From a virus: a DNA stretch of 24,700 nt. How positions within the stretch are numbered: the first letter of the stretch is position 1; each line of letters opens with the position of its first letter. The DNA is taken from the IMG/VR virus record IMGVR_UViG_3300017989_006435, positions 1 to 24,700 of that record. The stretch is one strand, 5' to 3'. The position numbers and the translations under genes are program-made. Of this stretch, positions 6,901-23,295 are shown in pieces. A model generated the notes under the pieces. It was not told where the DNA came from. It was given only the letters and a program-made list of their open reading frames with translations, and made no database searches.

Positions 6901-7503
6901 ATGGCTGGTCCAGAGAATTGTAAATGTGAGGTATGTAGCAAAGGAAACCCGGTTGTAACAGTAACTGATGTTGAGGGAATGACTCAGGAAGAGGATTTCA
7001 ATGAATTGTTTGAATCTGATGAAGAATTCATGCCGAATCCAAGAGTCATTGCTGAAAAATTGATTGGAGAACGACAGTTAGCTGGTAAGCGTATGGGCAT
7101 GAATGATGATGGGTGCAATACCAATCTCATTTCAAAGAATTATAGTCCTATGTTTATTCGAAAATTTAATGCAACTGCTGTAACAAATTGGCCGATGTAT
7201 ATATCAATGATTTGTGATGAAGATGTCAGTGATATTGATATGGTGGTCAATGGTGCATTGGATGCATACGAAGAAGCCGGTTTAATTGGAAATGATCTCC
7301 AAGCAATGCGAAACCTTACAGGCATCGTCTCTGAGACTCTATCAAGATACTATAACGCAAAGAAAAAGAACTGCGTCGAAGGAATTGCAATTACTCTATA
7401 TGTCGATAAAGCATATATACAGAGTCTGAGCGGTGATTTTATGAACCACGGACAGTGTCGAGCAGAGTATACAGCAGCTCTGAATATGATGACACAGATT
7501 TAG
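6901..7503 (+). CDS. Hypothetical protein
   Basis: 200 residues, with a strong GAGGAGGAAAG site before the ATG. A CKCEVC motif at residues 8-13 could bind metal. The middle (about 75-150) looks alpha-helical with conserved-looking NWPMYISMICDED. No membrane segment and no family recognised. It is the first gene after the likely terminator at 6822-6886 and ends 12 bases before the NADAR gene. Confidence 0.7.
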   Translation: MAGPENCKCEVCSKGNPVVTVTDVEGMTQEEDFNELFESDEEFMPNPRVIAEKLIGERQLAGKRMGMNDDGCNTNLISKNYSPMFIRKFNATAVTNWPMYISMICDEDVSDIDMVVNGALDAYEEAGLIGNDLQAMRNLTGIVSETLSRYYNAKKKNCVEGIAITLYVDKAYIQSLSGDFMNHGQCRAEYTAALNMMTQI

Positions 7504-7514
7504 GAGGGAATTCA

Positions 7515-8243
7515 GTGGCAACTAAGAAATCGTTTTGGGTGTGTAGCAAATGCGGTGCGTTGCATGATGAAGAAAGAGAAGCAAAAGAATGCGAACAAAT
7601 ACACGCATTTGAAGAGAAGATGGAAGTTATTGAAGTTAGTCAATGCTCTCATAATTGGCGATACCCAGATCGTATTCTTGTTTCTGATGGTTCTGGAGAT
7701 GCTGCTGAATATGAGATAAGGGGTGAACATTCCTACGAGGAGTTTTACCAAAGCAAAGACTGGTATTTTGAGTGGAATGGTTATAGGAAGAAAGAAAAAA
7801 TGATTAATGACTTTCGTGGTGATAATGCGTTTCTGAGTAATTTTTATCCATGTGAGGTTGTGTATGAAGGTTTAACATTTATCTCAGTAGAACATGCATA
7901 TCAAGCCGCCAAAACCTTAGAGCTTGATTTAAGAAAAATGATTCAGATTGCACCCACGCCAGGAGAAGCGAAGAAAGCAGGACAGAAAGTCCCGTTAAGA
8001 CCTGGTTGGGAAGAAGGTCTTAAATTTGATGTCATGAAAGAACTCCTTCTGCAAAAGTTTCAAATGCCAAAATTAAGAGAGAAGCTTCTTGAAACTGAGA
8101 ATAAATATCTAGAAGAAGGAAATTGGTGGCATGATAACATTTTTGGTAATTGCACTTGTATGAAATGTGAGAACGTGCATGGACAAAATGTGCTCGGGAA
8201 ATTGTTAATGGAAGTTCGTAATGAACTGCAGGAGGAAGAATAG
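7515..8243 (+). CDS. Zinc-finger / NADAR (YbiA-like) protein
   Basis: 242 residues from GTG 7515, 7 bases after AGGAGG. The N-terminus has a likely zinc knuckle (C10-x2-C13 with Cys/His further on, ...CEQIH). From about residue 96 there is a NADAR domain (YbiA/DUF1768): FRGDNAFLSNFYPCEV, FISVEHAYQAAKTLE, the GWEEGLKFDVMKELLLQKF helix and the closing HGQNVLGKLLMEVR. NADAR proteins are N-glycosidases; published members remove ADP-ribose from guanine in nucleic acid or cleave riboflavin-pathway intermediates. In a phage it could reverse a DarT-like defence (inference). A CTCMKC insert near residues 213-219 is unusual. Confidence 0.8.
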   Translation: MATKKSFWVCSKCGALHDEEREAKECEQIHAFEEKMEVIEVSQCSHNWRYPDRILVSDGSGDAAEYEIRGEHSYEEFYQSKDWYFEWNGYRKKEKMINDFRGDNAFLSNFYPCEVVYEGLTFISVEHAYQAAKTLELDLRKMIQIAPTPGEAKKAGQKVPLRPGWEEGLKFDVMKELLLQKFQMPKLREKLLETENKYLEEGNWWHDNIFGNCTCMKCENVHGQNVLGKLLMEVRNELQEEE

Positions 8244-13048: not shown

Positions 13049-13642
13049 ATGGGAGATAGAGTAGCTCTATTTGATATGGATGATACTCTCGTAGATTTTG
13101 ATATTAAAATGTTGAGAGATCTCCAATCAATTCAAGGACCTGGTGATGCAGAACCGATCGCTGCGCATGTTCCTGATTTACCGATTTATATGCAAAGGCG
13201 AAAACATCTCATTATGCAACAACGAGGTTGGTGGAGAGATTTGCCAGAAAAGAAACTCGGATTTCAGATAATGAACATTGCAACTCAGGTCGGTTTTACT
13301 GTGAACGTTTTAACAAAAGGACCATCCACAAAACCCCATGCGTGGTTGGAAAAAGTGGAATGGTGTAAGAAACATTTGGGTAACACGCCAATAACCATTA
13401 CTGAGAACAAGTCATTGGTTTATGGACGCGTCCTAGTTGATGACTATCCCCAATATATGGATGGATGGTTAGAATGGCGTAAAAGAGGTTTTGGGATAAT
13501 GCCGTGGACAAGCACCAATAAAGATTACTATAATCCACAGGTTTTAAAGACTGATGGAACCAATTTGGAGCATGTTCGTGAATTATTAAAAGCAGCATAT
13601 GATAGAGAATCTGGACAGGCTGCAGACTACCAATTAAAATGA
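13049..13642 (+). CDS. HAD-family 5'(3')-deoxyribonucleotidase-like phosphatase
   Basis: 197 residues, AAAGGAATAGG before the ATG. HAD motif I is FDMDDTLVDFD (D9, D11, T13). Motif II is VLTKGP (Thr near 91), and motifs III/IV are the Lys in ENKSLVYG and LVDDYPQY. This resembles 5'(3')-deoxyribonucleotidases, which dephosphorylate dNMPs, and would extend the nucleotide theme of the left block. Phosphatase against another small substrate is possible. It lies directly upstream of the metacaspase gene (6-base gap). Confidence 0.75.
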   Translation: MGDRVALFDMDDTLVDFDIKMLRDLQSIQGPGDAEPIAAHVPDLPIYMQRRKHLIMQQRGWWRDLPEKKLGFQIMNIATQVGFTVNVLTKGPSTKPHAWLEKVEWCKKHLGNTPITITENKSLVYGRVLVDDYPQYMDGWLEWRKRGFGIMPWTSTNKDYYNPQVLKTDGTNLEHVRELLKAAYDRESGQAADYQLK

Positions 13643-13648
13643 GAGGTA

Positions 13649-14602
13649 ATGATGAACAAGGATATCATTCTTCAAAAACTTGAGGCAGCTCGACAACAAC
13701 TAAATGAAGCCATGGAAATGATGAAGAGTGAAACTGTTGTTGAACCTCCAGAGACGATAATTGTATCACAACCTGTTGAGGAACCACCAACAAGATCTCC
13801 AGAAAAACGCGCATTAATTGTTGGTATAAACAAATATGATCCAGCACTTAATTGTGATCTAAGCGGGTGTGTTAATGATGCTAACAACATGAAGAGTATT
13901 TTAGAATCCAGATATGGTTTTACAAAAATAGTAATGCTAACTGATTTTGAAGCAACTCAAAAGAATATTTTAGCCTCACTCGGCGATATGATTGACGGCG
14001 CTATTGCTGGTGATCAGTTGGTTTTTACATTTTCAGGTCATGGTTCTCAGGTTCCGGATGCAAATGGTGATGAAACTGATTCTTATGACGAAATACTTTG
14101 TCCTACAGATTTGAATTTTGATGCACCTCTGTCAGATGATGTGTTGGCTACATATTTCAAAAGAGTTCCTGATGGTGCTCAATTAACTTTTTTATCTGAT
14201 TCATGTCATAGCGGAACTGTTTCTAGGGGATTAAATCTTATTAACAAACATCAAAAAAGAACAATGAGATATCTGCAACCACCACTTAGTATATTAGAGA
14301 AACTGAAAGGAAAGAAAAAAGCAAATCGTATTGGTCAGAAAGCTGTGGTTGAAGCAGCTCAAAATATCATTCTTTTCGCGGGGTGTAAAGAAGACAACTA
14401 CTCTTATGAGGGTTATTTCAATAATATAGTTCAAGGCGCATTTACTTGGAACTTCTGTAAAATGTGCCGACAAAATCCACAAAGAACATGGCGAGAGGCT
14501 GAGGATATAGTCAGAAATAAATTGATATCTTATGGTTATCCTCAAGAACCTCAATTAGTAACCAGAGCAGAAAATTTTGATTTGCTGCTGTTTGGGGGTT
14601 AA
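13649..14602 (+). CDS. Metacaspase-like cysteine peptidase (caspase fold, C14)
   Basis: 317 residues with GAGAGG before ATG 13649 (13652 also possible). Residues 1-28 form a coiled coil and 30-52 a Pro-rich linker. The caspase domain starts at RALIVGINKY (54-63), contains DLSGCVNDANNMKSIL, the catalytic His in FTFSGHGSQ (H131), and the catalytic Cys in LSDSCHSG (C186). DxxDEILCPTDL between them is typical of metacaspases, which cleave after Arg/Lys. No signal peptide. Caspase-fold genes are common in bacterial defence and rare in phages. Possible roles are attack on a host protein, maturation of a phage protein, or interference with host death. Target unknown. Confidence 0.88.
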   Translation: MMNKDIILQKLEAARQQLNEAMEMMKSETVVEPPETIIVSQPVEEPPTRSPEKRALIVGINKYDPALNCDLSGCVNDANNMKSILESRYGFTKIVMLTDFEATQKNILASLGDMIDGAIAGDQLVFTFSGHGSQVPDANGDETDSYDEILCPTDLNFDAPLSDDVLATYFKRVPDGAQLTFLSDSCHSGTVSRGLNLINKHQKRTMRYLQPPLSILEKLKGKKKANRIGQKAVVEAAQNIILFAGCKEDNYSYEGYFNNIVQGAFTWNFCKMCRQNPQRTWREAEDIVRNKLISYGYPQEPQLVTRAENFDLLLFGG

Positions 14603-14603
14603 A

Positions 14604-14765
14604 ATGAATTGGATAGGCTGGTTAGTTATTATTCTTATAATCTTATATGTTGCTTTTGGTTTCTTTCTAGGATCTGCTCTAGGAGGCATTAGTTCAGCGG
14701 AGATAACGTTTGCAGAAAGACTAAAATTTGCATTGACCTGGCCGCTGATGTTTTTAGGAAGATAA
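14604..14765 (+). CDS. Small membrane protein
   Basis: 53 residues from ATG 14604, preceded by GGGGGTTAAA; it starts 1 base after the metacaspase stop. Residues 5-30 (WLVIILIILYVAFGFFLGSA) form a membrane segment, and a second weaker one is near 40-51. It may be co-expressed with the metacaspase. Function unknown. Confidence 0.55.
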   Translation: MNWIGWLVIILIILYVAFGFFLGSALGGISSAEITFAERLKFALTWPLMFLGR

Positions 14766-15262: not shown

Positions 15263-15644
15263 GGGCGTGAATTTGGTATCGACGGGGATGAGGAAGTGAA
15301 GGTTGCGTTCCGTAGTTAGTCAAGTGGCTACGTTAAAAATTGACTACTAAACATAATTGCAGATGACTATCATCAAGCAGTTCAACTCGCTGCTTAAAGC
15401 GGGTTCGTCTAACCTGGGACTACTCTCTACCAGGATCTAGGCGTCGACTAGAGAGATAAGGGAGTTTGGGCTACAGGTGTACATGTCTTTTACCTGCTGA
15501 ACTCTTCGAAAACAAAAAAGAAAACGAGACATCTCTAACAACCTGTCATTCGGTTAAAGTTAGGGGACTTATAGAATGACTACGAACGTAGATACTGACA
15601 TGGAACATCGTCGGACGCGGGTTCGACTCCCGCCACGTCCACCA
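15263..15644 (+). ncRNA. ssrA: tmRNA (ssrA), tag ADDYHQAVQLAA
   Basis: 382 nt. The 5' end gggcgtg pairs with cacgtcc near the 3' end (one G-U); discriminator A and CCA are encoded. The conserved 5' segment ...tatcgacggg... and the 3' T-arm gcggg-ttcgact-cccgc form the tRNA-like domain. The resume codon is GCA at 15359; the tag ORF (15359-15397) reads ADDYHQAVQLAA and stops with TAA. The LAA end is the usual ClpXP degradation signal. It frees ribosomes stalled on mRNAs without stop codons. SmpB is not in the window, so host SmpB is probably used. Phage tmRNAs are known but uncommon. Confidence 0.93.
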
Positions 15645-22699: not shown

Positions 22700-22767
22700 A
22701 AAGGTAAGTTATGTTCAGATATAAAATTTGGGACTCATGGTCAGTCACTCAAACAGGAGGAAACACC

Positions 22768-23295
22768 ATGAGTAAGAAAACAAAAGATCAAGCACGCAAG
22801 TCAGATCCAAACGATGGACTCGTAGCTTTTGATCGTTTTGATGACATCTTTGCATCAATGGATAGTTTTTTCGAGACCGTTGGTGATGCATTTGGAAGCA
22901 TCTTCGATGAAGGGTGGGCAACACCGCCAGTCAGTAAAAGAATGTTTAACCGTATGCAACCAAAGACGTCCCTACCAAAAGGGAACATTCGAGAAACTGA
23001 TACCAAGTATATTGCTGAATTTGCACTTGCTGGTTTCTCAAAGGATGACATCAGTGTTGAGCTCAAGGATAATGTATTATTCTTGCAGGCAACAAAAGAC
23101 GATCAAATAGAAGAGAAGGGAAGATATCTCATGCAAGAGGTTGCTAAAAGAACCTTTAAACGTGTTATCAAATTCCCTGAGAAAATCAACACTGACGCTG
23201 TCACCGCATCATTCGAGAACGGCATCTTGACGCTTATCCTTGAGAAAGAGAAAGTTGAGCCAGCGGATGACGTATTACAAATTGACATCAATTAA
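22768..23295 (+). CDS. Small heat shock protein, Hsp20/alpha-crystallin
   Basis: 175 residues from ATG 22768, with AGGAGG 6-7 bases upstream (an in-frame ATG at 22711 also has a weak site). The N-terminal ~65 residues are a variable arm. The alpha-crystallin domain (about 72-165) has IRETDTKYIAEFALAGFSKD, KRTFKRVIKFPEKI, and the consensus GILTLILEK (152-160). No clear I-x-I tail besides QIDIN. It holds unfolded proteins without ATP. Phage copies are known in large phages and may protect virion or host proteins. Confidence 0.9.
   Translation: MSKKTKDQARKSDPNDGLVAFDRFDDIFASMDSFFETVGDAFGSIFDEGWATPPVSKRMFNRMQPKTSLPKGNIRETDTKYIAEFALAGFSKDDISVELKDNVLFLQATKDDQIEEKGRYLMQEVAKRTFKRVIKFPEKINTDAVTASFENGILTLILEKEKVEPADDVLQIDIN

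Follow-up and report, generated by a model that had tools for sequence, protein, structure and literature searches.

On the basis of sequence comparison and structure modelling, the DNA analysed here (the window, a 24.7-kb virus record) is shown to encode a complete metacaspase of prokaryotic type, a member of a phage protein family that is diverse and kept by selection. The protein is predicted to be active and to cut after Arg or Lys, and the best explanation for the family, to which we give somewhat less than an even chance, is that it acts in lysis of the host or in connection with it. We favour this role for the family; it is weaker for the window itself, because the gene stands there among tRNA and nucleotide-metabolism genes and its product begins with a coiled-coil-like helix.

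The metacaspase gene and its product

The gene is a complete open reading frame of 317 codons on the plus strand (13649..14602; all coordinates below are on this strand). A GAGG motif at 13643–13646 lies 5 nt from the second ATG (13652) and only 2 nt from the first (13649), and the start of the orthologue on contig L002 (see below) aligns with the second; the ATG at 13652 is therefore the likelier start. The codon use and GC content of the gene agree with those of the remaining window genes. When its surroundings were scanned for promoters and terminators, the results were no better than those from shuffled sequences. In Pfam, the product matches Peptidase_C14 (PF00656; E = 3.5e-29; score 102.6 bits, cut-off 21.4), whereas its sole NCBIfam match stays below the threshold (27.6 bits; cut-off 140).

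The AlphaFold2 model, made with an alignment of 43 sequences, has a full caspase fold (pLDDT 88.4, pTM 0.79). The nearest folds found with VIA-align are those of Arabidopsis metacaspase 4 (Z 29.1) and Geobacter GSU0716 (Z 27.1); plant metacaspases 4 and 9 score 28–29 and animal caspases clearly lower, about 21. A sequence search of the PDB at E ≤ 0.001 finds metacaspases and GSU0716 and nothing else; yeast-type metacaspase-1 is the best match among the solved structures, and GSU0716 the best of the bacterial ones. These results (Z 27–29 to metacaspases) bear out the original prediction of a full caspase-fold domain with H131 in FSGHGSQ and C186 in SDSCHSG, both of which are present.

Residue conservation was counted in a first set of 35 phage and 61 bacterial rows. 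The catalytic H131 (14039–14041, within the SGHGS codons S129–S133 at 14033..14047) is found in every row of both groups, and C186 (14204–14206, within the DSCHSG codons D184–G189 at 14198..14215) in 35 of the 35 phage rows; a second phage set also keeps both dyad residues. The S1 pocket of TbMCA2 consists of Cys92, Asp95, Ser156 and Asp211 (PMC4357240), which align with C74, D77, S129 and D184 of the window protein. D77 (GCVND; codon 13877..13879) is invariant (35/35 phage and 61/61 bacterial rows), and the other three positions are conserved in the phage rows for D184 (35/35), C74 (34/35) and S129 (33/35). Since the S1 residues match those of TbMCA2, Arg/Lys specificity is predicted, and the window protein is a putative Arg/Lys-specific cysteine protease. 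The caspase fold with its His/Cys dyad and the acidic S1 pocket place it in C14B; the basic S1 pocket of animal caspases (C14A), which cut after Asp, is not seen, the corresponding positions being acidic.

The Ca2+ site of TbMCA2 is formed by four aspartates, Asp173, 189, 190 and 220 (PMC4357240). The alignment keeps three of the four ligand positions in the window protein (D147, D163 and D164, the last two encoded at 14135..14140), and Asp220 is replaced by R193. D163 is present in 35 and D164 in 28 of the 35 phage rows, and the fourth position is Arg or Lys throughout the prokaryotic rows. Judged from this alignment, the window protein does not have the four-Asp site of eukaryotic-type Ca2+-activated metacaspases.

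Among known systems, the bacterial orthocaspases or metacaspases (C14B; GSU0716, PDB 3bij) share the fold, the dyad, the S1 acids and the Arg/Lys at the fourth ligand position, but they have at most 39 per cent identity to the window protein and are carried in bacterial genomes. The near bacterial kin are compact caspases of Geothrix, Accumulibacter and Variovorax; unlike the window protein, most compact bacterial rows have no N-terminal extension. The type I metacaspases of eukaryotes (yeast Yca1, Candida glabrata MCA-I and TbMCA2) resemble it in the p20→p10 order, a basic linker, an N-terminal extension, the S1 residues and three of the four Ca2+ ligand positions, but they differ at TbMCA2 Asp220 and their N-terminal regions show no visible similarity to that of the window protein. 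In CgMCA-I, cleavage occurs at Arg/Lys within the linker equivalent to the p20–p10 loop (PMC9622860). The Lys/Arg-rich loop of the window protein (residues 190–238, 14216..14362; low pLDDT at 189–197 and 227–231) is a candidate self-processing region, and cleavage within it may switch the protease on.

The BFVD fold search matched mainly giant-virus caspases and one ascovirus caspase; of its 26 matches at E ≤ 0.001, none is named as a phage protein and one carries no name. The giant-virus metacaspases (medusavirus, Clandestinovirus and Heterosigma akashiwo virus) are among the best of these matches and are also virus-encoded, but they belong to viruses of eukaryotic hosts; they are absent from the trees presented here. 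Those of medusavirus and HaV01 were reported as the first in cultured viruses (PMC6450098).

Distribution and relationships of the phage family

A syntenic orthologue is found on L002, a contig of 149 kb that also carries the terminase of a tailed phage, in support of the proposal that the gene is phage-encoded. The best GenBank matches of this terminase are to Flavobacterium phages (31%), followed by cyanophages. The two caspases are 64 per cent identical, with dN 0.28, dS 1.11 and dN/dS about 0.25, a ratio that indicates purifying selection, although dS is high. The nucleotidase gene precedes the caspase gene in both genomes (7389–7991 in L002), and Hsp20 and HNH genes follow it.

The gene is rare among catalogued phages, in agreement with the earlier view that a phage metacaspase is unusual; this view has to be qualified by the relatives present in uncultured viral contigs. 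Only one of 50,697 GenBank phage records carries a relative, which is unannotated, and the same single record was returned by two other phage queries. In this record, the huge uncultured phage LR745208 (485 kb), the relative has 33 per cent identity, falls in a different subclade and has different neighbours. Profile scans of IMG/VR yielded 40 and 73 loci, the union of which is about 93 contigs as counted by listed names, including some near-duplicates and a few weak matches that may be non-phage. No PHROGs family matched at E ≤ 0.001. In a library with few subscription journals and no bioRxiv preprints, searches for phage metacaspases turned up eukaryotic-virus cases, reviews and papers on unrelated matters, and none that describes this protein.

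The best bacterial matches to the window protein have 39 per cent identity. The first tree groups the window with phage rows only, in a clade of nine (94/89); a tree made by a quick method after addition of the second set does so in a clade of 21 rows (SH-aLRT 99). The structure prediction and the tree against bacterial caspases that had been suggested thus gave a confident metacaspase fold and a phage-only clade. Compact bacterial caspases nest amid the phage caspases, and a single origin of all phage caspases was rejected with the first tree (AU test, p = 3.6e-30); phage and compact bacterial lineages have therefore probably exchanged the gene.

The original prediction named a recent, unexpressed host passenger among the findings that would overturn it; a recent host passenger is rejected by the L002 orthologue, the composition and the tree. 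An orthologue in the same place, purifying selection and a phage-only clade are instead the marks of a resident phage gene. A neutral passenger gene without function, which the absence of the caspase from nearly all GenBank phages could suggest, is very improbable in view of the dN/dS ratio, the invariant dyad, the position kept with the nucleotidase and the phage-only clade.

Several family members have peculiarities of their own. Two phage metacaspases (L040:4450-6594 and L039:4621-6615) contain in-frame, HNH-containing inteins (PF14890) at one identical site, between SGHG and SQV by the catalytic His. Since no intein is present in L121, which is closely related, the insertion is recent or mobile. 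AlphaFold2 without an alignment gave an unusable model of the L040 protein (pLDDT 34). In the caspase open reading frame L042:1837-2748, the His-motif segment (SSHGSYTYDKNGDEEDGQDE) is C-terminal, after the p10 part, which points either to permutation of the gene or to a faulty assembly. An OmpA-like gene (L008:7373-7909, PF00691) is found shortly downstream of another phage caspase.

Gene neighbourhoods and alternative roles

The window contains 13 tRNA genes and a tmRNA gene, which make a bacterial host likely. The tmRNA gene (15263..15644; ARAGORN; Rfam RF00023, 162 bits) has the predicted tag ADDYHQAVQLAA and stands among the tRNA genes and many HNH genes. Directly upstream of the caspase is an NT5C-like HAD nucleotidase gene (13049..13642), which is separated from the caspase ATG by 6 nt and is barely above the cut-off (PF06941, 25.5 against 24.8 bits); directly downstream is a 53-amino-acid open reading frame with a single membrane span, recognised from its sequence (14604..14765), whose place is taken in L002 by a different gene. 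The neighbours described earlier, a nucleotidase and a membrane protein, are thus roughly in place, the first with a marginal assignment and the second not conserved. The wider neighbourhood holds NADAR, MazG, dCMP deaminase, QueC and HNH genes. The NADAR-domain gene lies at 7455-8243 (PF08719, 75.8 bits), and NCBIfam names some NADAR members anti-phage. An Hsp20-type small heat-shock gene lies at 22711-23295 (PF00011) and is common to L002.

Peptidoglycan-hydrolase genes are found near caspases elsewhere in the family. Among the matches listed, Pfam peptidoglycan hydrolases account for five of the 88 genes within two positions of a caspase and for none of the 142 control genes at positions three to six (Fisher p = 0.008); these counts are from the top 25 families and weak control matches may be hidden, a limit that does not affect the contig-wide test. 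In this test, 70 caspase contigs were searched with six families (Amidase_3, Phage_lysozyme, Muramidase, M15, SLT and Amidase_2), and of the 16 hydrolase matches above the family cut-off, nine share the strand of the caspase and are no more than 1 kb from it, where chance alone would give 0.75. The families were picked partly after the pattern in the first set had been seen, and only the second locus set, fetched afterwards, is independent: in it, three of six hydrolases are within 1 kb (0.26 expected; p = 0.001). In L125 the TAA of an amidase gene overlaps the caspase ATG, in L132 a lysozyme and the caspase reading frame overlap, and in L022 a holin-like gene is just upstream of the caspase. 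Mapped on the tree, the lysis label requires eight changes for nine rows; it is scattered, and the adjacency is therefore not one inherited arrangement.

The hydrolase genes beside family caspases suggest that phages may use the caspase in or around host lysis. The adjacency could also reflect a common insertion spot and not a common function. Most caspase phages have no lysis neighbour from the six families searched, many of the records being fragments. No lysis gene, neither endolysin nor holin, was found adjacent to the window caspase, and the single hydrolase detected in the 149-kb L002 record (Amidase_2) is 61 kb from the caspase. The timing of lysis, one of the roles proposed at the outset, is thus favoured by gene order in the family, but not by the window's own neighbourhood.

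That auxiliary neighbourhood suits host takeover or counter-defence almost as well as lysis. The protease would then cleave a specific host protein in the early or middle phase of infection, such as an effector of defence, as had been proposed, or a housekeeping factor. This is the main rival to a role in lysis, though rather less likely than not. The nucleotide- and tRNA-related genes around the window caspase, the strong variation of caspase neighbours from phage to phage and the patchy phyletic distribution of the caspase all agree with it; patchily distributed phage peptidases, as Iyer et al. 2021 argue (PMC7824862), are the ones deployed against the host. However, it leaves the endolysin neighbours in many lineages and the anchor-like N-termini (see below) unexplained, and no defence-system partner genes were recognised.

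Bacterial caspase homologues have roles in defence and death pathways (PMC8195603, PMC12805718), and the generic 'caspase' model of PADLOC matches the window protein; both are in line with a kept bacterial death protease that kills or sterilizes cells infected by rival phages. Such superinfection exclusion is nevertheless quite unlikely: the protein has a single domain, no sensor domain, NTPase or partner gene was seen among the window genes examined, and the gene neighbours are unlike those of defence modules.

Maturation of phage proteins had also been proposed. Read as the processing of capsid, tail or internal virion proteins, it is unlikely, although some caspases stand beside tail or connector genes (L016, L028) and although an S77 prohead protease was undetected in 31 of the 32 caspase phage records and an S78 protease in all of them, absences that may reflect divergent proteases or fragment records. 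The L012/G007 phage has, besides the caspase, its own T4-gp21-type protease (PF03420) together with gp23 and gp20, which makes this role less likely, and in L002 some 120 kb separate the caspase gene from the terminase/tail block. The window protein itself has a C14 fold, with neither S77/S78 homology nor a portal or capsid neighbour; as a maturation protease it would be a non-homologous analogue.

N-terminal segments and the proposed role in lysis

N-terminal extensions are present in the window's clade and absent from most other phage and bacterial rows. In the window protein, residues 4–26 (13658..13726) form a helix that is modelled with high confidence by AlphaFold2 and kept in L002; I7, L11, A14, L18, A21 and M25 constitute a 3–4 heptad pattern, which together with the hydrophobic moment makes it a candidate coiled coil. 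A Pro/Glu-rich linker follows (residues 27–52, 13727..13804), unstructured in the model. The N-terminal coiled coil proposed earlier is therefore plausible as regards the helix and its heptads, and any oligomer is a prediction.

Ten other members of the clade have anchor-like N-termini (L003, L006, L008, L009, L010, L013, L120, L122, L134 and L143), as judged from sequence alone, by eye and with simple moments. Those of L003, L010, L120 and L122 show an apparent membrane span with positive residues behind it, an arrangement that under the positive-inside rule would place the protease in the cytoplasm. Those of L006, L008, L009, L134 and L143 have a short hydrophobic segment rich in Trp and Phe. 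The window protein and its L002 orthologue differ from these: both carry a charged helix whose heptad pattern is good. The N-terminus of another phage caspase (L160:3995-4864) resembles a lipoprotein signal (MTRFTQLMVMMGFCAVMVGC), which implies that this protein is located in the envelope.

For a role in lysis, we envisage the following course. The protease of the family would be produced alongside the late, cell-opening functions. In the closest relatives of the window protein, the N-terminus would serve as an anchor in the membrane or as an amphipathic segment, the protease being predicted to lie on the cytoplasmic side, and in the window protein the N-terminal helix would hold the protease together. 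The active enzyme, cutting after Arg or Lys, would cleave a protein of the host or of the phage, at the inner membrane or close to it, and this cut may trigger, time or complete lysis. For the window, this role is an extrapolation, because the helix is soluble and coiled-coil-like and no endolysin is adjacent. It is possible, though rather less likely than not, that the family represents an undescribed lysis component of uncultured tailed phages: an endolysin-linked, membrane-tethered or coiled-coil metacaspase that cuts a membrane protein of host or phage and thereby triggers or completes the bursting of the cell, and of which the window protein would be a relocated, soluble form.

Bacterial caspase-like proteases have been discussed mainly as proteins of defence and death. 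If the role proposed here is true, phages wield the same class of enzymes themselves, possibly to control the time at which the host bursts.
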